Below, one piece after another: positions 32,808 through 62,834 of a stretch of 64,000 bases of DNA. Position 1 is the stretch's first letter; every line of letters starts with the position of its first letter. A program made the position numbers and the translations under genes. The notes under the pieces were generated by a model. That model saw nothing but the letters and a program-made list of their open reading frames with translations. It was not told the DNA's origin and did no database searches. Source of the stretch: Pseudomonas mandelii (GTDB taxonomy: Bacteria; Pseudomonadota; Gammaproteobacteria; Pseudomonadales; Pseudomonadaceae); NCBI RefSeq assembly GCF_900106065.1, contig NZ_LT629796.1:2826001-2890000 (forward strand), written 5' to 3'.

Positions 32808-34027
32808 TGAGCGACATTATCCGCCGCGACCCCCGCGCCGAATGGATTGCCCGTAACCGCCTGCACCCGCTGCACGCGGCCATGCAACCGGCGCAACACA
32901 GCTGGATGGGCCCTAACGGCGTCCTCCGCAAGAACCTGCACGGCATCGGTTTTATCGGTCCCAACGGCATCAAGCGCATTGACCGCAGCGGCGCTCAGCA
33001 CGGCGGCGCGACCAAACGCTCGGCGGCCGTGGAAGTGCAATTGCCACTGCATCAAGTGCCTGCACCTGCGTTTTACATCAGCGTGGTGCCGGACATGGTC
33101 GGCGGCCGCTTGAGCAGCCACGACCGCGACTTGCTCGGTCTGGCTCATCAACTGGCCGGCAAGGAAGGCGCGGTGTTGGCTGTGGTTTTCGGCGAACACA
33201 AAGAAAACGCCTTCACTACCGCAGGCGTCGATCGCTTGCTGGTATTGGATGGCGATGAATTCAGCGGTTATGCACCGGAGCAACGGGTCCAGGGCCTGCG
33301 GGCTGTGGATAACCAGTTCAGTCCGCGTCACTGGCTGCTGCCGGACAGCCGCAGCGGTGGCGGTGAACTCGGTCGGCGCTTTGCCGCCGCACTGGGCGAA
33401 CGCCCGGCCACGCGGGTCTGGCAGGTCAAGGATCAGGAATGCATCGGCCGCGCCGGTGCCGGTTTACAGGACCTTGCGCGTCCGGTCGCACGCTTGATTC
33501 TGGCCGCTGTCGAGTGCGCAGAACCGGTCAGCGAAACCCGTCACGAAGCGTTGCCCGTGGAGTTATCCACAGCCGTCGCACGCAGCTTGTCGCGCATTGA
33601 AGATTTGGGCGCGGTGGCGGTGGATCCGGCGGCGATTCCGATGGCCGAAGCCGAATTCATCTTCTCCGGCGGCAACGGAGTCAAGGACTGGGGACTTTTC
33701 CACAGGACCGCTGAAGCCCTTGGCGCCACCGAAGGCGCGTCGCGGGTGGCGGTGGACGATGGCTTCATGGCGCGCGATCGCCAAGTCGGCGCGTCCGGTA
33801 CCTGGGTCACCGCGCGGGTTTACGTGGCGGTGGGGATTTCCGGGGCGATCCAGCACCTGCAAGGCATTGGTGCCTGCGACAAGGTGGTGGCAATCAACCT
33901 CGACCCTGGCTGCGACATGATCAAACGAGCCGACTTGTCGGTGATCGGTGAGAGCGCCGAAATTCTTCAAGCCTTGATCGCGGCGGTAGAGGCTTACCGC
34001 AACGAAGCCAAGCGCGATGCGGCTTAA
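32807..34027 (+). CDS. Electron transfer flavoprotein alpha-like subunit (FixB family)
   Basis: 406 residues, longer than standard ETF-alpha (about 310) because of an N-terminal extension of about 85 residues with a WMGPNGVLRKNLHGIGFIG block. The C-terminal FAD domain is intact (LSRIEDLGAV, FSGGNGVKDW, DRQVGASGTWVTARVYVAVGISGA, CDKVVAINLDP). Coupled to dgcB by a one-base stop/start overlap. It likely receives electrons from the dimethylglycine demethylase. Contains two exact DnaA boxes. Confidence 0.87.
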   Translation: MSDIIRRDPRAEWIARNRLHPLHAAMQPAQHSWMGPNGVLRKNLHGIGFIGPNGIKRIDRSGAQHGGATKRSAAVEVQLPLHQVPAPAFYISVVPDMVGGRLSSHDRDLLGLAHQLAGKEGAVLAVVFGEHKENAFTTAGVDRLLVLDGDEFSGYAPEQRVQGLRAVDNQFSPRHWLLPDSRSGGGELGRRFAAALGERPATRVWQVKDQECIGRAGAGLQDLARPVARLILAAVECAEPVSETRHEALPVELSTAVARSLSRIEDLGAVAVDPAAIPMAEAEFIFSGGNGVKDWGLFHRTAEALGATEGASRVAVDDGFMARDRQVGASGTWVTARVYVAVGISGAIQHLQGIGACDKVVAINLDPGCDMIKRADLSVIGESAEILQALIAAVEAYRNEAKRDAA

Positions 34028-34042
34028 GGAAAGGAAAGGGTT

Positions 34043-34813
34043 ATGAGCACGAAAATCATCAGCCTGGTGTCCATCGGCGCCCACCCGACCTCCGGCCGGC
34101 CACGTCGCGCGGAGCAGGATGCGCGGGCGGTGGAACTGGGTCTGCAACTGGCTGGGGATAACTTGCACGTGCTGCATGCCGGCGATGTCGCAGAGCCGGC
34201 GTTGCGCGCTTATCTGGGCATGGGCCTGGAACAACTGCATGTGCTCGAACAACCGCAAGGCGCCGATGCACTGCCTGCATTGACCGCGTACCTGCGCGAC
34301 GCCGGGGCGCAAGTGGTGCTGACTGGCAGTCAGGCGGAAACCGGCGAAGGCTCGGGCATGCTCCCGTTCCTGCTGGCGGAAAGCCTCGGCTGGCCGCTGG
34401 TGGTGGGGCTGGCTCAAGTGGAGTCCATCGACGGTAATTCAGCGCTGGTGCTGCAAGCCTTGCCTCGCGGTCAACGCCGTCGATTGAAAGTGCGGCTGCC
34501 GTTTCTCGCAACTGTGGATAACGCTGCACCGAAACCTCGGCAGAGCGCCTACGGCCCGGCCCGACGCGGGGTGTTGCAGGCCGATGAAGTCGAAGTGATC
34601 GACGATGAATTGTTGGCCGTCGCCACGCTGCAACCGGCCAAGCCACGTCCAAAACGTCTGAAGGTGATCAAGGCCAAGAGCGGCGCGGACCGGATGAAAG
34701 CTGCGACGGCCAAGGCCAGTGGCGGCGGTGGGCAAGTGCTCAAAGGCGTGACCGCGCAGGCCGGGGCTGAGGCGATTCTCAAGTTGCTGATCGAAGAAGG
34801 CGTCGTCCGCTAA
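34043..34813 (+). CDS. Electron transfer flavoprotein beta-like subunit (FixA family)
   Basis: 256 residues. ETF-beta/adenine-nucleotide-binding fold (ADARAVELGLQLAG-type start, VVLTGSQAETGEGSGMLPFLLAESLGWP), with a lysine-rich C-terminus that ends in EAILKLLIEEGVV. It pairs with the preceding alpha-like subunit, 15 bases away, and closes the dgc operon. Contains one exact DnaA box (34513-34521). Confidence 0.85.
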   Translation: MSTKIISLVSIGAHPTSGRPRRAEQDARAVELGLQLAGDNLHVLHAGDVAEPALRAYLGMGLEQLHVLEQPQGADALPALTAYLRDAGAQVVLTGSQAETGEGSGMLPFLLAESLGWPLVVGLAQVESIDGNSALVLQALPRGQRRRLKVRLPFLATVDNAAPKPRQSAYGPARRGVLQADEVEVIDDELLAVATLQPAKPRPKRLKVIKAKSGADRMKAATAKASGGGGQVLKGVTAQAGAEAILKLLIEEGVVR

Positions 34814-34834
34814 CCGAAAATCAGCACAGAACCC

Positions 34835-34865
34835 ATGTGGGAGCGAGCAGGCTCACTCCCACAGG
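34835..34865. repeat. Single REP hairpin
   Basis: TGTGGGAGCGAGCAGGCTCA followed by CTCCCACA: a solitary REP rather than a doublet, 20 bases after the ETF-beta-like stop and just before the GNAT gene. Confidence 0.75.
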
Positions 34866-34897
34866 GTGTCCGTGTCACCGACATTTATGGGGAAACA

Positions 34898-35464
34898 ATG
34901 GCAGTAGAATTTCGTTCGGCAGTGCGCGCCGATGCGCGTGAGATTGCGCGTCTGTTTCAAATCACATCGGAGGGGGCTGCCGATTACATCTGGAGCCAAC
35001 TCGCCCGGCCCGGTCAGGATCTGCTGGACGTCGGCGCCATTCGTTACGCCCGCGACGATGTTGATTTCTCCTGGCAGAACTGCCTTATCGCAGAGTCGGA
35101 GGGCCGGGTCATCGGCATGCTGCACAGTTACGTGATGCGTCACGATCCGCTGGCAGAGCCGACGACCGATCCGGTCCTGGCGCCCTACGCGAAGATGGAA
35201 ATCCCCGACACCCTGTACATCTCCAGCCTGGCGTTGCATGAAGGCTGGCGCAACCTGGGCCTGGGCAAGCAATTCCTTGCCTACGCCTACGACCGTGCCA
35301 ACCGGCTCGGGCTCAACGGCTTGAGCCTGATCGACTACGCCGCCAACACTGGCGCGCGTCGGTTCTATGAGCGTCATGGCTTCCGCATCGTCGACACCTG
35401 CCAGATCACGCCCCATCCGATGATTCGGGTTACGGGGGAGGCCTACCTGATGTATCGGCCATGA
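34898..35464 (+). CDS. GNAT-family N-acetyltransferase
   Basis: 188 residues from MAVEFRSAVRADAREIARLF, with GGGGA before the ATG; the ORF upstream of it runs through the REP and was rejected. Acetyl-CoA motif A is seen as LYISSLALHEGWRNLGLGKQ (about 104-123), then ARRFYERHGFRIVD near the end. The substrate is unknown. It follows the dgc operon and is followed by the DnaA-box region. Confidence 0.82.
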   Translation: MAVEFRSAVRADAREIARLFQITSEGAADYIWSQLARPGQDLLDVGAIRYARDDVDFSWQNCLIAESEGRVIGMLHSYVMRHDPLAEPTTDPVLAPYAKMEIPDTLYISSLALHEGWRNLGLGKQFLAYAYDRANRLGLNGLSLIDYAANTGARRFYERHGFRIVDTCQITPHPMIRVTGEAYLMYRP

Positions 35465-36489
35465 ACACTCACCCGATGTTGCGCCAGATTCAGGCTGGCG
35501 TTTCCATCCCATAGGAAACCCATGGTTACCCACAATCCCTGTTAGCGCTTCTGTGGATAACATGTTCGCCCTTCGCTACACACCATACAAAACAAGCCCT
35601 GCAAACCTTCGTACAAAAAACAACCAGGCTAACTTGCGGTTTTTACAGGCTTTTTCCAGAGGATAAGTTTGTCCGCTAGCCAATACTTGCCCCCAATCTC
35701 TGTTAGCGCATCTGTGGATAAGATGTTCGCTGTCCGCTACAGGCCTTATAAAACGGGCTTGTCAGGTAGATGGTTAAAAAACGATCAAATCAGCGGTTTT
35801 GCGCGACTAATCACCCGCAAAGCCCGATATATTGCGGTTTTCAGAGGTTTTCCACAGATCGGCCGAAGTTGCCCCCAAAGTCTGTTGGCGCTTCTGTGGA
35901 TAAGGTGTTCGCCATCCGCTGTAAGCCACGTATAACGTGCTCTGCAAGCTTTAGATCAAAAAACAACCAATCGCTGTGGAAAACCGGCCTTCTGGATAAG
36001 TCACGGTTTTTCTTCGGTTTCTGTGGAGAAAGATTCCCGCCTATCCACACTTGTCCCCATTAGCTGTGGGTGGAGGTGTGGATAACTTGTTCGCCAAACC
36101 CTGAAAGCCACGTCCCGCATAGGCTTGAATGGAATAGATCAGATTTCATACAGTTCTAAGCCGCTGGCTTGACTTCGATCGGTCGCCTGTCTTCACTCAC
36201 AGGTCACAAGGACCGCCGTCATTTATCCACATCTGGTTCAGGGAGAACGCGTGATGGATAGCCAGCCCGCCCCCATTTTCTTCGCAACGTGCGTGCCCCT
36301 CCCGGCGGTCTTGTTGCGCAAACGCATTCACCGCCGCGCCGCCAATCAGCGCGCTCGCCTATAGCGCCCGACCTTTCGTAGTGACACCCGCGTGCTGCCG
36401 TTGAGTTCACTCAGTGGCCAGGTACTCGTTCGCCCATCGATTGCAGGCAACCGCAGAGTTGCCCTATCTGCCTGATAGAGGAAAGTCCC
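35465..36489. other. 1-kb non-coding region with four iterated DnaA-box units
   Basis: No convincing gene. Four diverged direct repeats, each with CTGTTAGCGCTTCTGTGGAT or a variant plus AA and a following TGTTCGC, carry exact DnaA boxes (TGTGGATAA) at 35552-35560, 35713-35721, 35895-35903 and 36077-36085. Spacing is 161, 182 and 182 bases. A fifth box in the opposite orientation (TTATCCACA) is at 36223-36231. Near-matches (CTATCCACA 36041-36049, others around 35655, 35850, 35975, 35990) and A-rich stretches such as AAAAAACAACCA lie between. Confidence 0.85.
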
Positions 36490-39400
36490 ATGACACGGAT
36501 CGCAACGCCCATCAGCGACATCAAGGAACATTACGACGTGATCGTCATCGGCTCGGGTTACGGCGGCGGGATCGCGGCGTCGCGCCTGTCCCGCGCCGGC
36601 AAGCGGGTCTGCCTGCTGGAACGGGGCCGGGAGATACAACCCGGCGAATACCCGAACACGATGCTGGCAGCCACCGAGGAATTGCAGGTGCACGACCCGG
36701 ACGGCCACATCGGTTCGCGCACCGGGTTGTTCGATCTGCACGTCAACGCCCAGCAGAACGTGGTGGTCGGTTGCGGCCTGGGCGGTACGTCGCTGATCAA
36801 CGCCAACGTCGCACTCGAACCGGAGCCCGGTGTCTTCGACGATCCGCGCTGGCCATTGGCGGTGCGCGAACATCGCGACACCTTGCTCAAGGACGGTTAC
36901 GCCCGGGCGCGGGAAATGCTCAAGCCCAATCCGTATCCCAGCACTTCACCGGTGTTGCCGAAACTCGAAGCCAACAAGAAGTCGGCGGACTACCTCAAGC
37001 AAGGCGCGCATTTTTACCGGCCGCCGATCAACGTGACCTTCGACAAACTGCCGAACAACCTCAACCATGTCGGTGTTGAACAACTGCCTTGCAACCATTG
37101 CGGCGACTGCGTCTCGGGCTGTAACAACAAGGCCAAGAACACCACGCTGATGAATTATCTGCCGGACGCCTGGAACCACGGCGCGGAGATTTTCTGCCAG
37201 GCGCAAGTGCGGCATCTGGAACGCGACGGCGATGGCTGGATCGTGCACTTCCAGTACCTGGACAGTGGCCGCGAGAAGTTCTCGGCGCCGACGCTGTTCG
37301 TCAAAGCCGACATCGTCGTGGTGTCTGCCGGCACCCTCGGCTCCACCGAAATCCTCCTGCGCTCCCGGGACAAAGGCCTGTCGATGTCCGGCCAGCTCGG
37401 CGAGAACATGAGCGGCAACGGCGACATCCTCGGCTTCGGTCACAATTGCGCACAACCGATCAATGGCATCGGTTTCGGCGCGCATCCGGCGAAGGAATTG
37501 CAGCCGGTCGGCCCGTGCATCACCTCGGTCATCGACATGCGCACCGAAGGCGACTGGCGTAGCCGCATGGTCATCGAAGAAGGATCGATCCCCGGTGCCC
37601 TCGGTCGGCCGATGGTGCCGAGCATGGCCGGGTTCGCCGAGCTGATCGGTCAGCCCACCGACGACAGTTTTACCGGCAAGTTGAAGTACAAGGAACGCGA
37701 AGCCGAAAGCTTCCTCCGTGGCCCGTATTACGGCGCGCTGCACAACATGCAGACGTACCTGATCATGAGCCACGACGACGGCAAGGGCCGGATGGTGCTG
37801 GACAGCAAGGATCAGCTGCGCATCGACTGGCCGGGAGTTGGCGAGCAGGAAAACGTCAAGATCGGTAATGAACGGCTGCACCTGAGCACCAAGGCACTGG
37901 GCGGCATCTGGGTCGAGAACCCGATCTGGACCAAATTGCTCAAGCACAGCATCGTCTCGGTTCACCCCCTGGGCGGTTGCGTCATGGGCGAGGACGCGGG
38001 GCAGGGCGTGGTCAACCACAAGGGCCAGGTGTTCAGCGGCGCCAGCGGGACTGACGTGTATGCCGGTTTGTACGTGACCGACGGCGCGGTAATTCCGACG
38101 TCCCTGGCGGTCAATCCGTTGCTGACGATTTCCGCGGTGAGCGAGCGCAACATGGGCCTGCTGGCTGCCGATCGCGGCTGGCAGATCGACTACACGCTGC
38201 CTTCGGCCCCACGCAAACAAGTGGCGCCGCCAACGCTCGGCGTGCAATTCACCGAAACCATGAAAGGCTACTTTTCCCGGGCCTTCACCGCAGCCCAAAG
38301 TACTGACCTGAAGGTCTACGAAGCGGCGGCCAAACGCGGCGAGGCAGATAACTCGCCCATCGATTTCACCCTGACCATCACCGCCAACGACCTCAATCGC
38401 ATGATCAAGGAGCCGGAGCACGCCGCGACGCTGGTCGGTACGGTCAACGCCCCGAGCCTGTCGCCGCAGCCGCTGACCGCCAGCAACGGCGTGTTCAACC
38501 TGTTCGAGCAGTATCAGCAGCAAGTCGGCGTGCGCCACATGAAGTACGACATGAAACTGACCGCCGAGGACGGCAGCGACTTTTACTTCAGCGCCTTCAA
38601 AACCGTGCCCGAGGACAACGGCGTGCTGAACATCTGGCACGACACCAGCACCCTCTATGTGACGCTGTATCGCGGGCCGGACAAGACCGGCGAGGTGATC
38701 GGCAGCGGGGTGATGCACATCCATCCGACCGACTTTGCCAAGCAAATGACCACCATGAAGGTGCTCAACGCCCGCAACGAACGCGAACGCATCGAAGGCC
38801 TGGCGCGGTTCGGCAAGTTCTTCGCCGGGATTCTCTGGGAGAGCTATGGCGGCGTGTTCGCCGGCGACATCTACTTCAACCCCGACGCACCGCCACGGCT
38901 CAAACGACCCCTGGATGCGCCGTCGCCGGTGGTGCATTTCTTCCAGACCGAAGACAACGTCGAATTGCGCCTGACCCGTTATCAGGGCGGCAGCAAAGGG
39001 CCGGTGATGCTGGTGCACGGGTTGGGCGTAGGCTCGAATATTTTCTCCACCGACACCATCCAGACCAACCTGCTGGAGTACTTGTGCAAGCACGAGTACG
39101 ACGTCTGGCTCCTGGATTTGCGGGTGAGCATCCTGCTGCCGGCGAGCAAGAAGGAATGGAACGGCGACCAGATCGCCCAGTATGACTTCAAGGCGGCCAT
39201 CGCGCAGATCCGCCAGGCAACCGAGGCGGCGGACGTGCAGTGCGTGGTGCATTGCTACGGCGCGACGACCTTCTTCATGTCGTTGCTGGCCGGGCTGCAG
39301 GGCGTGCGCTCGGTGGTCTGCTCGCAGATCGCGGCGGATACGGTGGTCGCCACGGCAACCGGGCTCAAGGCCGGTTTGCACCTGCCGGGCATGCTCGACG

Positions 39401-39942
39401 CCATCGGCATCAAATCCCTCACGGCGTATGCCGACAACAAGGAGAACTGGTTCAACAAGCTCTACGACAAGGCGCTCAACGGCTACGCCCGGATCGAGGC
39501 CCAAGGCTACTGCACCAACCCGGTGTGCCATCGCATCACCTTCATGTACGCGTCGTTGTATCGCCACGACACCCTCAACGAAACCTTGCACGACAACCTG
39601 CACGAATTGTTTGGCGAGTCGAACATGCACACCTTCGAGCACCTGGCGCTGATCGTGCGCAAAGGCCATCTGGTGGACTTCAAGGGTGACGACGTCTACA
39701 TGCCGCACTTCGACCGGCTGAGCATGCCGATCTGCTTTATCAGCGGCGCGGACAACCAGTGCTACCTGCCGGAAAGCACGCTCAAGACTTATGACCGCGT
39801 GTGCAAGGTCCATGGGCCGGAGCGTTACAGCCGGCATGTGGTGCCGGGGTACGGCCATATCGATTGCATGTTCGGCAAGGACGCGGTGGTCGATGTGTAC
39901 CCGATCATCCTGCAACACCTCGAGAAAACCGCCCTCGGCTAA
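36490..39942 (+). CDS. GMC flavoprotein (cholesterol-oxidase-like) fused to an alpha/beta hydrolase
   Basis: 1150 residues. FAD motif GSGYGG at 21-26, a Cx2Cx2Cx3C cluster (CNHCGDCVSGC, 201-211), GMC C-terminal His492 (VHPLGGC) and Asn542 (VNPLLTISA). A beta-rich middle part (about 580-800) resembles no domain I recognise. The alpha/beta hydrolase (about 815-1150) has the oxyanion HG (843-844), nucleophile elbow VHCYGA with Cys922 where serine is usual, Asp1088 and His1123. No signal peptide. AGAGGAAA precedes the ATG. The natural substrate is unknown; a sterol-like or lipid alcohol ester is a guess. Followed by a cytochrome and a phosphoesterase on the same strand. Confidence 0.85.
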   Translation: MTRIATPISDIKEHYDVIVIGSGYGGGIAASRLSRAGKRVCLLERGREIQPGEYPNTMLAATEELQVHDPDGHIGSRTGLFDLHVNAQQNVVVGCGLGGTSLINANVALEPEPGVFDDPRWPLAVREHRDTLLKDGYARAREMLKPNPYPSTSPVLPKLEANKKSADYLKQGAHFYRPPINVTFDKLPNNLNHVGVEQLPCNHCGDCVSGCNNKAKNTTLMNYLPDAWNHGAEIFCQAQVRHLERDGDGWIVHFQYLDSGREKFSAPTLFVKADIVVVSAGTLGSTEILLRSRDKGLSMSGQLGENMSGNGDILGFGHNCAQPINGIGFGAHPAKELQPVGPCITSVIDMRTEGDWRSRMVIEEGSIPGALGRPMVPSMAGFAELIGQPTDDSFTGKLKYKEREAESFLRGPYYGALHNMQTYLIMSHDDGKGRMVLDSKDQLRIDWPGVGEQENVKIGNERLHLSTKALGGIWVENPIWTKLLKHSIVSVHPLGGCVMGEDAGQGVVNHKGQVFSGASGTDVYAGLYVTDGAVIPTSLAVNPLLTISAVSERNMGLLAADRGWQIDYTLPSAPRKQVAPPTLGVQFTETMKGYFSRAFTAAQSTDLKVYEAAAKRGEADNSPIDFTLTITANDLNRMIKEPEHAATLVGTVNAPSLSPQPLTASNGVFNLFEQYQQQVGVRHMKYDMKLTAEDGSDFYFSAFKTVPEDNGVLNIWHDTSTLYVTLYRGPDKTGEVIGSGVMHIHPTDFAKQMTTMKVLNARNERERIEGLARFGKFFAGILWESYGGVFAGDIYFNPDAPPRLKRPLDAPSPVVHFFQTEDNVELRLTRYQGGSKGPVMLVHGLGVGSNIFSTDTIQTNLLEYLCKHEYDVWLLDLRVSILLPASKKEWNGDQIAQYDFKAAIAQIRQATEAADVQCVVHCYGATTFFMSLLAGLQGVRSVVCSQIAADTVVATATGLKAGLHLPGMLDAIGIKSLTAYADNKENWFNKLYDKALNGYARIEAQGYCTNPVCHRITFMYASLYRHDTLNETLHDNLHELFGESNMHTFEHLALIVRKGHLVDFKGDDVYMPHFDRLSMPICFISGADNQCYLPESTLKTYDRVCKVHGPERYSRHVVPGYGHIDCMFGKDAVVDVYPIILQHLEKTALG

Positions 39943-57306: not shown

Positions 57307-58506
57307 ATGTCTGGCAATCGTGGTGTGGTGTATCTCGGCAATGGCAAGGTCGAGGTGCAAAAAATCGACTATCCGAAAATGCAGGACCCGCGCGGCAGGA
57401 AGATTAACCACGCCGTCATCCTGCGTGTGGTTTCCACCAACATCTGTGGTTCCGACCAGCACATGGTGCGCGGCCGCACCACTGCTCAGACTGGCCTGGT
57501 GCTGGGCCATGAAATCACTGGCGAAGTGATCGAGAAGGGCAGCGACGTCGAAAACCTGCAGATCGGCGATCTAGTCTCCGTGCCGTTCAACGTGGCTTGC
57601 GGGCGCTGCCGTTCCTGCAAGGAAATGCATACCGGTGTTTGCCTGAGCGTTAACCCGGCGCGTCCGGGCGGTGCTTACGGTTATGTCGACATGGGCGACT
57701 GGACCGGCGGCCAGGCTGAGTACGCGATGGTGCCGTATGCCGACTTCAACCTGTTGAAACTGCCTGATCGTGATCGCGCGATGGAAAAAATCCGCGACCT
57801 GACCTGCCTCTCCGACATCCTGCCGACCGGTTACCACGGCGCAGTCACCGCTGGCGTTGGCCCAGGCAGCACCGTGTACATCGCTGGCGCCGGCCCTGTC
57901 GGTCTGGCCGCTGCCGCGTCCGCCCGCCTGCTGGGCGCGGCGGTGGTGATTGTTGGTGACGTCAACACCGTCCGCCTGGCACACGCCAAGGCCCAGGGTT
58001 TCGAAATCGCCGACCTGTCCCTGGACACCCCGCTGCACGAACAAATCGCTGCACTGCTGGGCGAGCCAGAAGTGGATTGCGCCGTCGACGCCGTAGGCTT
58101 CGAAGCGCGCGGCCACGGCCATGACGGCGTGAAACACGAGGCCCCGGCCACCGTGCTCAACTCGCTGATGGGCGTGGTACGGGTTGCCGGCAAAATCGGT
58201 ATCCCGGGCCTGTACGTGACCGAAGATCCAGGTGCCGTCGATGCTGCCGCAAAAATGGGCAGCCTCAGCATCCGCTTCGGCCTGGGCTGGGCCAAATCCC
58301 ACAGCTTCCACACCGGCCAGACGCCCGTGATGAAGTACAACCGCCAGCTGATGCAGGCGATCATGTGGGACCGCATTCACATTGCCGACATCGTTGGCGT
58401 GGAAGTCATCAGCCTTGATGACGCGCCACGCGGTTATGGCGAGTTCGATGCGGGCGTGCCGAAGAAGTTTGTGATTGATCCGCATAAGTTGTTCAGTGCG
58501 GCGTAA
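57307..58506 (+). CDS. fdhA: Glutathione-independent formaldehyde dehydrogenase FdhA
   Basis: 399 residues, AGGTGAAAGC before the ATG. Zinc-dependent MDR enzyme with tightly bound NAD. The catalytic zinc cysteine and following Asp are in STNICGSDQHMVRG, structural zinc cysteines in NVACGRCRSCKEMHTGVC, nucleotide fold GAGPVGLAAAASARLLGA. Oxidises the formaldehyde set free by GbcA and DgcA. Last gene before a strong terminator. Confidence 0.95.
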   Translation: MSGNRGVVYLGNGKVEVQKIDYPKMQDPRGRKINHAVILRVVSTNICGSDQHMVRGRTTAQTGLVLGHEITGEVIEKGSDVENLQIGDLVSVPFNVACGRCRSCKEMHTGVCLSVNPARPGGAYGYVDMGDWTGGQAEYAMVPYADFNLLKLPDRDRAMEKIRDLTCLSDILPTGYHGAVTAGVGPGSTVYIAGAGPVGLAAAASARLLGAAVVIVGDVNTVRLAHAKAQGFEIADLSLDTPLHEQIAALLGEPEVDCAVDAVGFEARGHGHDGVKHEAPATVLNSLMGVVRVAGKIGIPGLYVTEDPGAVDAAAKMGSLSIRFGLGWAKSHSFHTGQTPVMKYNRQLMQAIMWDRIHIADIVGVEVISLDDAPRGYGEFDAGVPKKFVIDPHKLFSAA

Positions 58507-58525
58507 GCGTTACGCAAGACGGGAG

Positions 58526-58554
58526 AAGGGCGACAGAGATGTCGCCCTTTTTTA
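58526..58554 (+). terminator. Intrinsic terminator after fdhA
   Basis: Nine-bp stem AAGGGCGAC and GTCGCCCTT around AGAGAT, followed by a T-run. Ends the glyA-sox-purU-fdhA transcript. Confidence 0.92.
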
Positions 58555-58571
58555 TGGCTGTCCGGTGACAC

Positions 58572-58961
58572 CTAATTGCTCAAAGAGAATGAGCAGTCAT
58601 TGTTGGGTTTAGAATAACAGCGATTCGATTCGTCCCAATTCGCAGGCGCCGCGGCTTTCCAGTTGACTACATTGTCTAGAAACAAGGCCAGATTTTGGTA
58701 GCGGCAACTCAACTGACTGACTTTCACTGGCCCGTTTTCGGTTTCGTCTTCAGTGATATACGCCGCATCTTCAAAAACCAGAGTCTTAACATCGACCGGT
58801 TGTCCCGGATCTTCTCCTTTCCAGATATGGCCGGATTTGTCCTTGGCTTCAAAGCCACTTTTTGTTTTGTAAATAGATGAGGGTTCAGGGCAAGTATCTG
58901 CGTAGGTATAGTTACTCACGGTCAGGATTGCTAAAACGCTGGCAATAATCTTTGTCTGCAT
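58572..58961 (-). CDS. Secreted DUF3757-like protein
   Basis: 129 residues from MQTKIIASVLAILTVSNYTY with a signal peptide (cleavage after YADT or TYA, about residue 21). The mature part has four cysteines (DTCPEPSSIY, QLSCRYQN, NRCYSKPNNDCSFSLSN) and KSGHIWKGEDPGQP. It resembles DUF3757. Function unknown. It is AT-richer than the neighbouring operon, in keeping with an accessory patch that also holds the IS. Readings from 59156 add 65 unlikely residues. Confidence 0.7.
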   Translation of the reverse strand: MQTKIIASVLAILTVSNYTYADTCPEPSSIYKTKSGFEAKDKSGHIWKGEDPGQPVDVKTLVFEDAAYITEDETENGPVKVSQLSCRYQNLALFLDNVVNWKAAAPANWDESNRCYSKPNNDCSFSLSN

Positions 58962-59190
58962 GGTGTCTAACCCCCGTTTGTTTGTCCGTAATAAACACTC
59001 GCGTTGATACCTATTGCCAGCTAATTGCCGTAAGTGAAGAAAAACAATAGCTTCAGTTGGTATGTACGCAAAAGAGAAGCTGGACTTACGGTCAAAACTA
59101 AATAGATTTAATGAGGCTTTTTGTCGCTTACCACTATGATGTTCTTTGCGTACCACTGTCCGTTATCGCCTTGGACTAGGTCATACGTCA

Positions 59191-59198
59191 CCTTATCG
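59191..59198. repeat. Target-site duplication, left copy
   Basis: CCTTATCG, identical to 60618-60625 on the other side of the element. Eight bases is the usual ISL3-family duplication. Confidence 0.9.
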
Positions 59199-60617
59199 GG
59201 CTCTTCGCATTTAAGGGTGTAGCTGATTTCTAAACCCTCCTGACTTCAGCAAGCACCTGGCTATGTAATTGGTTAAATTTCTAAAGCCCAAGGCGGTACC
59301 TCGTAAGTGCTCAAGTCGCCCGTTGATAGCTTCTGTTGGACCGTTGCTGGTTCCTGGCCGGTCGAAGTAGGCAAGGATGCTCTCAGCGTATTTTTTCAGC
59401 GTTTCCCCCAAGCCTTTCACCTCGATGAGCGCTTTGGGCAAGTCGCTGGCTGTAATGATATTTATGACCTCTTCCATGAGTTTTTTACCACGTTTTCGAT
59501 CCGGCTCGTTGTAGGCGCTGACCACCCGTTGGTACATGCTCCAGGTGCAATCCACTTCGAGGTGGTGCTCATCTGCAAACAGCTGGAACAGTTGCTTTTT
59601 GTTGGCGTCAGACAGGTAGCTGATCCGAGTCAGTAGCGTTCGACGGCTTTTGTAGAGCGGGTCATTTTTACGCCCTCTGCGGCCCAGGATGTCGTGTTGC
59701 ACACGCCGGCGGCATTCATCCAGCATGTTGCTTGCCCAGCGCACGACATGGAAAGGATCCAGCACGGTTTGGGCTTGAGGCAGGGCTTCTTGCGCTGCAG
59801 ATTTAAACCCCGTAAAACCGTCCATGGCAATGCTTTCGATCTGGTCACGCCACGATTTGGGGCGACTCTGTAGCCATTGCTTAAAGGCTTGTTTGGAGCG
59901 GCCTTCCAGCACATCGAGCAAGCGGGCCGGCCCGTTTTTGTTACGCACGGGCGTAAGGTCAACCACGATGGTGACGTACTTGTCACCACAGCGTGTATGT
60001 CGCCAAACATGCTCATCCACGCCCAGCACGGTCACACCGTCAAAACGTGTCGAGTCATTAAAAAGCAGGCGCCGTCCTTCGTTGATAATGGCATTATTAG
60101 CGGTGTGCCATGCAACATCAAGCTGGCTCGCAACACGAGATACCGACAGATGATCCAGCACGATGGCAGCTAATGCCCAGCGTATCGCCCCATATGAAAG
60201 CTTTGAACGTGGAGGTGCTGCACTGTTTGTATCTTCATGCCAGAAACAGCCGCAAGCACAACGCCAGCGACGGATACGCAGCAGCAATCTGGTTGGTCGT
60301 TGTCCGTAAGGTGTGTGAGCAAGATGCCTATCGACAGTACCGCGTGAAACACCAGCAGCCCCGCACTTGGGGCATGGCTCGGGTGCTTTGGTTAAACGAC
60401 ATTCGATGACGGCGCGCTCTGCACAAAGATGTTGTCCAGTGGCAGTCAGGCCGAGGTTATTCAGTTGGCAAAAGCTGGAAAGATCAGGGCTAGAAAAGGT
60501 AAGATTGTTCACGTCGGGGGCTTAGTTTTTGTTGGTGTGAGAGCTTACATTTTCTAAGATCCTCGACTCCTTTTCCAGCCGGTCAGATTTTTTCTACACC
60601 CTTAAATGCGAAGAGCC
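59199..60617 (-). mobile_element. Complete ISL3-family insertion sequence (1419 bp)
   Basis: Perfect 24-bp terminal inverted repeats beginning GGCTCTTCGCATTTAAGG at 59199-59222 and 60594-60617, flanked by identical 8-bp duplications CCTTATCG. One intact transposase gene fills the element. Identical repeats and intact duplications point to recent insertion. Confidence 0.95.
59211..60512 (-). CDS. ISL3-family transposase
   Basis: 433 residues from a GTG start. N-terminal zinc-finger-like cysteines (CPKCGAAG, RWRCACGCFWHE), a helix-turn-helix region (LSVSRVASQLDVAWHTANNAI, about 122-142), and the DDE domain with VLGVDEHVWR, SIAMDGFTGF / TVLDPFHVVRWA, and a C-terminal GPTEAINGRLEHLRGTALGF. Its last codons lie within the left inverted repeat. 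Full length, so probably active. Confidence 0.95.
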   Translation of the reverse strand: MNNLTFSSPDLSSFCQLNNLGLTATGQHLCAERAVIECRLTKAPEPCPKCGAAGVSRGTVDRHLAHTPYGQRPTRLLLRIRRWRCACGCFWHEDTNSAAPPRSKLSYGAIRWALAAIVLDHLSVSRVASQLDVAWHTANNAIINEGRRLLFNDSTRFDGVTVLGVDEHVWRHTRCGDKYVTIVVDLTPVRNKNGPARLLDVLEGRSKQAFKQWLQSRPKSWRDQIESIAMDGFTGFKSAAQEALPQAQTVLDPFHVVRWASNMLDECRRRVQHDILGRRGRKNDPLYKSRRTLLTRISYLSDANKKQLFQLFADEHHLEVDCTWSMYQRVVSAYNEPDRKRGKKLMEEVINIITASDLPKALIEVKGLGETLKKYAESILAYFDRPGTSNGPTEAINGRLEHLRGTALGFRNLTNYIARCLLKSGGFRNQLHP

Positions 60618-60625
60618 CCTTATCG
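60618..60625. repeat. Target-site duplication, right copy
   Basis: CCTTATCG, matching 59191-59198. Confidence 0.9.
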
Positions 60626-60789
60626 CCGACCTTTGGATGACGGTCGCCCGGGTTGATGCAAAAGATAATTGGTTGAGTCTCCAGTTCTATATGTTCCAAA
60701 CTTTTCGATGGCGACGAAGTAGGTTCGTTAATGACTGTAGTATCGAACTTTTCTGTTTTTCGCCTCATCGCCGTGTCTCCGATAAGAAT

Positions 60790-60821
60790 GGCCTGCCCTA
60801 ACCACTAGGTGGAAGCAGGCC
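60790..60821 (-). terminator. Two-tier hairpin downstream of the cold-shock gene
   Basis: GGCCTGC (60790-60796) and GCAGGCC (60815-60821) enclose a smaller CCAC/GTGG stem. It lies 36 bases beyond the csp stop, but the T-run is poor, so termination is only likely. Confidence 0.4.
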
Positions 60822-60856
60822 TGGTCGAGTCTTCAACGACTTTGGTCATTGTTTAT

Positions 60857-61069
60857 TTATTCGGTGCGAACCTGCGCAGCCTGTTGACCTTTTTGCCCTT
60901 TTTCTGAAACGTAAGATACTGCTTGTCCCTCTTTCAAACTTTTAAAGCCGTCTGATTCAATTGCTTTGAAGTGTACGAAAAGTTCCGCTCCTCCACTATC
61001 TGGAGTGATAAATCCAAAGCCCTTTTCATCGTTAAACCATTTAACTATACCTGTTTCTCTGTCAGCCAT
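60857..61069 (-). CDS. Cold-shock domain protein (CspA family)
   Basis: 70-residue single-stranded nucleic-acid-binding protein. RNP1 is KGFGFI (about 16-21) and RNP2 LFVHF (about 30-34, the first residue Leu rather than Val). [20 protein letters not shown] opens the fold. It acts as an RNA chaperone. The long AT-richer leader with inverted repeats suggests post-transcriptional control. The split gene downstream may be a divergent relative. Confidence 0.92.
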
Positions 61070-61390
61070 ATTAATGCTTCCTACCAGATCGAAAACGAAG
61101 AGGTGCGAGCTGCTATTTAATAACTCACTCCCGATTGCTGTTGTTACAAACTCAGCTTAGTTTGTGCTGCGAAACGGTCGCAACTGTCAGATATGACAGA
61201 TTTTTATACCGGTTTGATGTAGTCAGGTTGTTTCTTATAGCAGTCAATTAACTGGTCTATCTCATGCTATGCACTTCCAAAGGCAAAAAATGCCTGCGCC
61301 AGCAAGGAACAACACCCCCCAAACCCCGGTCAAATCGGCAGTTTTCCCGCCCACACACGGGTGGCTCTCACGGCGCAAGAGGATGTCTGG
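61070..61390. other. Leader region of csp and upstream region of the DUF2780 gene
   Basis: 321 bases without a gene. Two inverted repeats: ACAAACTCAGCTTAGTTTGT (61146-61165) and CTGTCAGATATGACAG (61184-61199). AT-rich near 61200-61260. Both csp (minus) and the plus-strand DUF2780 gene must start transcription here. Confidence 0.6.
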
Positions 61391-61945
61391 ATGAAGATTT
61401 CACGCGGTTTAGCACTGGCTTCGCTGATGACCCTCGCGGCCAGCCCGGTCTTCGCCGGTTTCAGCCTGGACGATGTGACCAAAGCGGCTTCGAGCATGCA
61501 GGGGGGTAATGCTGCCGCAGCGGCTGCGCCAACGTCAGAAACGGCCGGATTGTTGAGCGCGCTCAGCGAATTGAACGTGACACCTCAACAGGCCGTCGGC
61601 GGGACTGGGGCGATGCTGGGGCTGGCGAAGAATCAGTTGAGCTCGACCGATTACTCGGAACTGGCCAAAAGCGTTCCGGGTATCGACAAGTTGTCCGGCG
61701 GCGGTGAGCTGGGTGCGCTGGCCGGCCTGCTTGGGTCTTCCGGCAAGGCGGCCGGTCTGGACAATGCCTTGGGTGCCGTGAAGAACACCAACGATCTGAA
61801 CAACGCTTTCAGCGCGTTGGGCATGGACAGCGGCATGATCGGCCAGTTTGCCCCGGTGCTGTTGCAATACCTCGGTCAGCAGGGCGTTGGTGGCTCGTTG
61901 CTGGAAAGCCTGGGCGGGATCTGGGGCGCCGGCACCGGCAGTTGA
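61391..61945 (+). CDS. Secreted DUF2780-family protein
   Basis: 184 residues from MKISRGLALASLMTLAASPV with a signal peptide cleaved after VFA (about residue 22). AGAGG eight bases upstream. The mature protein is rich in Gly, Ala, Leu and Ser with repeats of LNVTPQQAVGGTGAMLGLAK type, as in DUF2780 (VcgC/VcgE-like) proteins. Function unknown. Convergent with the acyltransferase gene, one base apart. Confidence 0.8.
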   Translation: MKISRGLALASLMTLAASPVFAGFSLDDVTKAASSMQGGNAAAAAAPTSETAGLLSALSELNVTPQQAVGGTGAMLGLAKNQLSSTDYSELAKSVPGIDKLSGGGELGALAGLLGSSGKAAGLDNALGAVKNTNDLNNAFSALGMDSGMIGQFAPVLLQYLGQQGVGGSLLESLGGIWGAGTGS

Positions 61946-61946
61946 T

Positions 61947-62834
61947 TCAACGGCGCTCGGCGCGCAACGCGTCGATGCGTTGATCCTTCTCGATCCAGAG
62001 TTGGTTGACCCAGTTCTGGACCGTTTCGCGAAACACCGGATCGTTTTCGTAATCGCCTTGCCACAATGCCGGGTCGAGCTCTCGGGTCTTGATGTCGATG
62101 ATGACCCTCGGCACGTTGCCGCTGAGCAAGTCCCAAAACCCCGGAATCTGCTGCTGCGGATACACCACCGTCACATCAAGCACGGCATCCAGCTGTTCGC
62201 CCATTGCCGCCAGGACAAACGCCACGCCGCCGGCCTTGGGCTTGAGCAGGTGAGTGAAGGGTGACTGCTGCTGAGTGCTTTTCGCTGCGGTGTATCGGGT
62301 GCCTTCCAGGTAATTGACCACGGTCACCGGCTGACGCTTGTACAACTCGCACGCCGCTTTAGTGATTTCCAGATCCTTGCCGGCCAGCTCAGGGTGCTTG
62401 GCCAGGAATGACTTGGTGTAGCGCTTCATGAACGGGTAATCCAGGGCCCACCACGCCAGGCCCAGGAATGGCACCCAGATCAGTTCCTTCTTGAGGAAGA
62501 ACTTGAAGAACGGCGTGCGGCGGTTCAGGGCCTGGATCAACGCCGGGATATCGACCCAGGATTGATGGTTGCTGATCACCAGGTATGAGGTATCGACGCG
62601 CAGACCCTCGCCACCACGAATGTCCCACTGGGTCGGGATGCACCACTTGAAGATCAGCTTGTCGATCTCGGCCCAGGTCTCGGCGATCCACATCACCGCC
62701 CATGAGGCGTAGTCGCGATAGCGACCAGGCAAGACCAGTTTGAGCAGCGCAAACACCATCAGCGGCCCGATCAGGACCAGGGTGTTGAGCAACAGCAGCA
62801 GGGTAACTAAACAGCCGGTGAGCAGGCGGCGCAT
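61947..62834 (-). CDS. 1-acyl-glycerol-3-phosphate acyltransferase-like (YihG/PlsC family)
   Basis: 295 residues. An N-terminal membrane segment (about 7-35) is followed by the PlsC motifs NHQSWVD (NHx4D, about 89-95), FLKKELIWVPFLG, and NYLEGTR. Transfers acyl groups to lysophosphatidic acid in the family; E. coli YihG is the nearest named relative I recognise. Start ATG at 62834. Not in an operon. Confidence 0.87.
   Translation of the reverse strand: MRRLLTGCLVTLLLLLNTLVLIGPLMVFALLKLVLPGRYRDYASWAVMWIAETWAEIDKLIFKWCIPTQWDIRGGEGLRVDTSYLVISNHQSWVDIPALIQALNRRTPFFKFFLKKELIWVPFLGLAWWALDYPFMKRYTKSFLAKHPELAGKDLEITKAACELYKRQPVTVVNYLEGTRYTAAKSTQQQSPFTHLLKPKAGGVAFVLAAMGEQLDAVLDVTVVYPQQQIPGFWDLLSGNVPRVIIDIKTRELDPALWQGDYENDPVFRETVQNWVNQLWIEKDQRIDALRAERR

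Follow-up and report, generated by a model that had tools for sequence, protein, structure and literature searches.

A conserved tandem array of DARS-like DnaA-box modules in Pseudomonas mandelii, with sister loci on both chromosome arms

An intergenic stretch of the Pseudomonas mandelii chromosome, at positions 35526-36150 of the 64,000-nucleotide stretch analyzed here (the window), contains four tandem copies of a composite module of ~100 bp (array A; 35526-36085) in which DnaA boxes are arranged as in the DnaA-reactivating sequences (DARS) of Escherichia coli. We consider it probable that this stretch is a tandem array of four DARS-like modules, which would exchange ADP for ATP on DnaA. The locus, at 2,861,465-2,862,489 of the genome, lies ~0.65 Mb from oriC, and because of its DARS-like build and its similar chromosome positions in many relatives, the array is probably part of replication timing. 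To our knowledge, the timing of initiation in Pseudomonas has been little explored relative to that in E. coli.

The core of the module consists of three DnaA boxes, with box I head-to-head with box II across a gap of 5 bp and box III placed 3 bp further on; in the first module, A1, the plus strand reads TTACCCACA, 5 bp, TGTTAGCGC, 3 bp, TGTGGATAA. Measured against TTWTNCACA, box III is exact in most modules, while box I carries 1 to 4 mismatches to TTATCCACA and box II is reduced to approximately YCMACA. A search that left the gaps free (a strong box, then ACA after 4-14 bp, then box I after 0-12 bp) through 59 genomes of the genus, among them that of the window, returned 234 matches, and all of the 150 that were listed are 35 bp long with gaps of 9 and 5. 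At least one match is present in 52/59 genomes, and the reversed control gave 0 in all 59. Among 361 distinct contexts of an exact box, 156 have box I at offset +26, compared with 8 occurrences in total at the 50 other offsets of 9-59, a share that is no genome-wide rate since the sequences had been gathered for these sites. As modules within one genome are probably related by duplication, these counts indicate a fixed architecture and not a set of independent inventions.

The two E. coli sites have the same build, 9-5-9-3-9 with box I opposed to boxes II and III. The DARS1 core reads TTATCCACT-5-TGTGGATAA-3-TGTGTATTA; we take its place to be the gap between bioD and uvrB, in keeping with the box geometry and the map position of 17.5 min. 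The DARS2 core reads TTATTCACC-5-TGTGGATAG-3-TGTGAAGAA and falls inside the stretch bounded by published deletion primers (PMC4585315). PMC5742627 likewise describes a common spacing for the DARS1 and DARS2 cores and an inverted box I in both. A matrix of the module was built from 101 contexts (Pseudomonas plus a few Stutzerimonas), those left after thinning the 249 module contexts of the flank analysis to <70% identity. In 26.5 kb of E. coli DNA selected around known loci, its best-scoring position among 52,796 is the DARS2 core and the next best is the DARS1 core; a site near DARS2 (L078:3452), in fourth place, scores far lower. The DARS1 core score is reached by 0/835,902 positions in 80 dnaA regions. 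When the matrix is retrained without a set of named genomes (described below), only DARS1 (8.0) and DARS2 (-6.1) exceed -10 in three E. coli stretches, that of datA among them, and reversed loci give 0/1,940,318 positions at ≥0.

On the far side of box III, the modules share a flank with two further elements. The Fis consensus GNNYANNNNNTRNNC is matched at exactly -65 from box III in at least 5/6 positions in 202/249 contexts and in 6/6 positions in 71, compared with medians of 1.5 (≥5/6) and 0 (6/6) at other offsets, the next best of which reaches 22. The central 7 bp of this Fis-like site are 87% A+T, versus 49% overall. Among the 11 modules of the source genome, nine match 5/6 positions, one 4/6, and the fourth module of the array, A4, 2/6. 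The A-tract of the site points one way in A1 and A3 and the other way in the modules of loci B and C (see below), within the same 15 bp, which fits the expectation for a dimer site. Pseudomonas putida Fis binds sites predicted by the E. coli matrix, with 6/8 verified by footprint (PMC5612765). Closer to the core, at -40 to -20, the modules have the palindrome ARGCC-N11-GGCYT, and a weak fourth box ends at -3. Stems of at least 5 pairs occur at the palindrome in 44/101 contexts against 24.2 expected, but control stretches give 39/101 and 39/101 (24.9 and 24.0 expected), so that we discarded a freely covarying stem; as 18 of the 44 stem-bearing contexts also have one common centre, we read the palindrome as sequence-specific. 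An IHF site as a fixed partner was likewise rejected, with the consensus found in 5 and 6 of 249 contexts (1.4 and 1.6 in shuffles) and at no fixed place.

The palindrome recurs at DARS1. With the core excluded, a palindrome matrix scores the DARS1 flank at 13.0, a value reached by 2/52,802 E. coli positions counting the flank itself, by 0/3000 shuffles and by 39/836,062 dnaA-region positions. The half sites AAGCC and GCTTGC lie at -40 to -36 and -23 to -18 from box III of DARS1.

With respect to conservation, a DNA search with the stretch found a match in 46/58 other genomes of the genus, some of them short or at sister loci, and in 0/36 genomes from other families of the order. The locus as fetched from 29 relatives (L010-L038, of which L029 is a partial locus) has its box spacing retained and holds 134 exact boxes, or 5.1 per kb versus 0.30 per kb in the flanks. 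In an alignment of these 29 with the window, a comparison that the sequence-only reading of the window had proposed, identity to the window is highest in box III (0.97), followed by box I (0.89) and box II (0.85), and drops to 0.73 in the inter-box spacers and 0.63 outside. The spacings between modules at locus A are clustered, with 84/85 at 150, 159-161, 172, 181-183 or 192-193 bp and the remaining one at 342 bp, forming a ladder of ~10-11 bp steps, about one helical turn. In a periodicity test with 20,000 random sets, 0 match the 14 distinct values and 37 match the five rungs alone; few independent events stand behind this ladder, as most spacings are inherited. Helical phasing as a general rule does not hold, since arrays in distant genomes (~158, 168, 189, 194 and 204 bp, by subtraction) are out of phase with it.

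Modules number 1 to 9 per locus in Pseudomonas. The exact pattern gave no hit in seven genomes of the genus (G007, G011, G013, G027, G040, G041 and G053). Stretches were taken from three of these, selected by an A-tract word, and all three carry arrays (G040, 7 modules in 1.1 kb; G041, 9 in ~1.8 kb; G013, 3). No module was found at the second places fetched from G040 and G041, nor at G026:C6. The tandem arrays of 7 and 9 modules (L218:1096-2214 and L220:885-2649), in two divergent genus genomes, exceed the array in the window. In a set of 40 named genomes, drawn from the 80 dnaA-region loci, which include none of Pseudomonas aeruginosa, all seven of Pseudomonas and Stutzerimonas carry modules with gaps of 9 and 5; the other 33, Halopseudomonas included, show pattern matches in three (Kluyvera, Klebsiella and Vibrio), none with these gaps and all with matrix scores <0, in a comparison where many assemblies are drafts and modules lacking an exact box III would escape the search. 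Copies with an exact box II are present in one Stutzerimonas and one Pseudomonas viridiflava genome, and box I of the Stutzerimonas copy is TTATCCACT, as in DARS1.

The source genome, a single contig of 7.04 Mb, holds at least 11 modules at five loci (A to E; Table 1), 0.65-0.99 Mb from oriC on both arms, in a search allowing up to 3 mismatches. The remaining four of the 15 hits of this search are two reverse-strand self matches and two chance-like ones (2,920,735 and 4,352,488), and one hit came from the reversed control. Because the matrix was run on the window and fetched loci only, modules of greater divergence could have escaped. Other DNA matches to the stretch in its own genome are short (16-39 bp), and CAAAAAACAACCA at 1580847 belongs to no module. 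We place oriC beside the dnaA match (2,213,209-2,213,415, minus strand), since four exact boxes accompany it at 2,214,724-2,214,997.

In the tabulated relatives, four of the five loci recur at comparable places with respect to oriC. Expressed as distance from dnaA in percent of the main contig, A lies at 8.1-9.2 and B at 9.2-11.5 on opposite arms in 10/11 tabulated genomes of known length, the exception (G028) being rearranged. Locus C lies at 13.2-15.6% in 9 tabulated genomes and D at 11.1-13.0% in 5, counts that are no presence rates, as a genome entered the table only where a match was listed. Inspection by eye likewise puts A and B on opposite arms in G016 and G050 (0.48-0.68 Mb); their arms are swapped in G014 and G019, and they share one arm in G017. 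The idea that A and B mirror each other exactly around oriC, suggested by their places here (-649 and +656 kb), was rejected, as the distances in relatives are similar and not equal, with swaps or rearrangements, read by eye, in G014, G017, G019 and G028.

The exact boxes that first drew attention to the region are confirmed. There are 10 exact TTATCCACA boxes in the window against 0.19 expected, the largest count in 100 shuffles being 1. All ten lie where the sequence-only reading had put them, two of them (25060 and 45395) outside the cluster and eight within 33304-36231 (33304, 33563, 34513, 35552, 35713, 35895, 36077 and 36223), and the 161/182/182 spacing and common flanks that it described for four boxes are genuine. 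The repeated structure includes just these four (35552, 35713, 35895 and 36077); the boxes at 33304, 33563 and 34513 fall within ETF genes and have no module. The lone box at 36223 is inverted relative to the array, and an opposite-strand box at 144-148 bp occurs in 10/29 fetched relatives (table read by eye). In the genome-wide density check proposed earlier, the genome itself is box-rich (157 exact boxes versus 17 for the reversed pattern). Read by eye among the 141 of 157 boxes placed (the other 16 lie beyond 3.24 Mb), no second stretch has five boxes per 0.7 kb; oriC has four in 0.27 kb. Exact boxes are also concentrated around oriC, with at least 118/157 within 1.1 Mb, or 31% of the chromosome (hand count), many of them single and without a module. 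Two other box-rich places were noticed, one with three exact and two near boxes in ~100 bp, ~158 kb from oriC and without DARS-like geometry (C1:2372484-2372587; L044:4485-4587), and one with four exact boxes in 1.7 kb, ~0.86 Mb from oriC, where the pattern search found no module (C1:3070424-3072115; L042:4424-6115).

If the modules act as DARS do, DnaA-ADP would bind the exact box III together with its weak neighbors, box II and, facing it, box I, and head-to-head contact of DnaA on boxes I and II would loosen ADP. The released apo-DnaA could then rebind ATP and become competent to initiate at oriC. A Fis-like dimer at the -65 site, together with a further factor or a DNA shape at the palindrome, may regulate this complex, comparable to Fis and IHF at E. 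coli DARS2, in whose action Fis participates. Array A and its sister loci on both arms, ~8-16% from oriC, would couple the re-arming of DnaA to locus copy number. Taken further, and held with about even confidence, Pseudomonas and Stutzerimonas may own a distributed DnaA-recharging system of DARS arrays with up to 9 modules, most with a Fis-like switch and a palindrome, at similar oriC distances on both arms, so that re-arming would depend on how many copies several loci have and on when these are replicated, and not on just a pair of sites as in E. coli.

Several observations weigh against a DARS function. Boxes I and II are weak, box II of A1 to A3 retaining little besides its TGT end, and the exact box is mostly III in Pseudomonas modules versus II in E. 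coli, DARS1 included. Module A4 is without a Fis-like site and 0/11 modules of the source genome match all 6/6 consensus positions; the Fis-like site has no counterpart at -65 in DARS1, and a Fis matrix at this offset gives -10.6 and -2.8 in the E. coli cores versus a Pseudomonas median of 14.1. DARS2 needs IHF sites in E. coli, whereas a consensus scan recognised no fixed-position IHF site in the 249 contexts. The flank of DARS2 differs from that of Pseudomonas, its palindrome region being unmatched (379/3000 shuffles as good), and the palindrome window at DARS1 was picked after the match had been noticed by eye and may or may not be on the side of the published DARS1 flank. The E. coli ranking, too, comes from a short and selected sample of DNA. 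Finally, A and B lie 8-11% from oriC, like E. coli datA (84.6 to 94.6 min) and closer than DARS2 and DARS1; DARS1 at 17.5 min is far from oriC at 84.6 min. The Pseudomonas loci are several and on both arms.

Box number and distance from oriC make datA the main rival: the arrays could be its counterparts, titrating DnaA or prompting ATP hydrolysis soon after oriC-proximal DNA has been copied. As in datA, A and B are non-coding clusters of DnaA boxes ~10% of the chromosome from oriC (8.1-11.5% in the 10/11 tabulated genomes), with many exact boxes in little space, and the at least 11 modules of the source genome fit such a role as well. The head-to-head boxes with spacings of 5 and 3 are, however, the signature of DARS, while the datA complex is mainly head-to-tail according to PMC5742627. 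The boxes of E. coli datA are mostly widely spaced, apart from a single opposed pair with a 3-bp gap (L079:4907 and 4919), and form no 5/3 trio, and the module matrix finds nothing above -10 in the datA stretch. In addition, datA needs an IHF site in E. coli, for which the Pseudomonas modules offer no fixed consensus, and the conserved weak boxes I and II would be unnecessary for plain titration. We therefore regard a datA-like role as rather unlikely. The sequence-only reading had suggested a datA-like locus, and the part of it that is well supported is a locus dedicated to DnaA regulation and distant from oriC, as the spacing and map position are conserved and the boxes are the best conserved positions; the datA analogy itself is probably wrong. 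Its other suggestion, a remnant iteron origin, finds no support: no rep gene is among the four neighboring genes searched with Pfam (ETF, ETF, GNAT and GMC), no plasmid or phage match was found for the stretch, and there is no skew switch. A second or dormant chromosomal origin seems very improbable to us. It would resemble oriC2 of Pseudomonas aeruginosa, a chromosomal element beside the essential origin, and PMC4403523 describes two autonomously replicating elements in that species, only one of them essential; one of the five loci could itself correspond to oriC2. On the other hand, mean GC skew is 0.029 ahead of the locus and 0.001 beyond it, and it does not change from negative to positive at 35-36 kb; dnaA together with its four exact boxes puts oriC 0.65 Mb from here, reading the sequence by eye revealed no extended AT-rich unwinding region, and the module is present at five loci; an active origin at array A is thus unlikely.

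One neighbor of the array is a GNAT gene; the other, upstream of which the array lies, is a GMC oxidoreductase-hydrolase gene. DnaA could control the transcription of either; at locus B, moreover, the neighbor LivF is retained in 30/30 fetched relatives. Yet the modules persist where the neighbors vary (in 1.5-kb flanks of the 29 relatives, GMC is found in 12/29, GNAT in 8/29 and the second ETF in 19/29), the modules of B, C and D adjoin unrelated genes, and a consensus scan found no sigma-70-like promoter in the stretch, for which reason a promoter array was rejected too. We give transcriptional control hardly any weight, and the same is true of an ordinary intergenic repeat family with no DnaA function. 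Recurrence of the unit within the genome speaks for such a family, and the sequence-only reading had named scattered units as what would overturn its proposal; instead, the 11 copies found lie at five loci only (≤3 mismatches), four of which have similar map positions in relatives, conservation is highest in the DnaA boxes and the spacings of locus A follow the 10-11 bp ladder. An RNA gene was rejected as well, with no Rfam match at E values up to 1.

DARS-like sequences are present in many proteobacteria according to a review (PMC10380432), and PMC4245941 describes the DARS2 core as conserved among gammaproteobacteria related to E. coli. The review cites another paper for this, so some Pseudomonas copies may already be recorded; the passages of PMC10218098 on the subject place no DARS in Pseudomonas, and a literature search on DARS and Pseudomonas showed nothing further on point among the papers listed. 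If the DARS reading is right, Pseudomonas offers concrete, deletable loci for probing DnaA control, DARS logic would look both older and more modular than one would gather from the two E. coli sites, and the palindrome would be a flank element common to Pseudomonas modules and DARS1.

Table 1. Features of array A (window coordinates) and the module loci of the source genome (genome coordinates)
Feature	Position	Strand	Details
A1 core	35526-35560	-	weak box I TTACCCACA, 35526-35534 (+); weak box II, 35540-35548 (-); exact box III, 35552-35560 (-); geometry 9-5-9-3-9
A1 palindrome region	35580-35600	.	position of ARGCC-N11-GGCYT, -40 to -20; weak in A1
A1 Fis-like site	35611-35625	-	GTACAAAAAACAACC on + strand; -65 to -51 from box III; 5/6 consensus positions
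A2 core	35687-35721	-	box I TTGCCCCCA; box II; exact box III, 35713-35721
A2 palindrome region	35741-35761	.	
A2 Fis-like site	35772-35786	-	5/6 consensus positions
A3 core	35869-35903	-	box I TTGCCCCCA; box II; exact box III, 35895-35903; top matrix score of the window, 99.3
A3 palindrome region	35923-35943	.	
A3 Fis-like site	35954-35968	-	GATCAAAAAACAACC on + strand; 5/6 consensus positions
A4 core	36051-36085	-	box I TTGTCCCCA; box II; exact box III, 36077-36085
A4 palindrome region	36105-36125	.	
A4 degenerate Fis position	36136-36150	-	2/6 consensus positions
Lone exact DnaA box	36223-36231	+	inverted vs array; 146 bp from the A4 box
Locus A			four modules (array in the window)
Locus B	1,557,033; 1,557,408		
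Locus C	3,206,877		
Locus D	1,406,726; 1,406,928		
Locus E	2,906,811; 2,906,923		degenerate pair, confirmed by matrix

A Pfam search of the four neighboring genes assigned them to ETF, ETF, GNAT and GMC. The GNAT open reading frame as listed (34835-35464) begins inside an intergenic palindrome resembling repetitive extragenic palindromic elements (gggagcgagcaggctcactccc), and its true start is probably the ATG at 34898. The gene at 36490-39942 encodes a protein of 1150 amino acids that combines a GMC oxidoreductase with an alpha/beta hydrolase domain. Elsewhere in the window, 58001-62000 has a G+C content of 0.53 versus ~0.60 in the remainder and is possibly acquired DNA.

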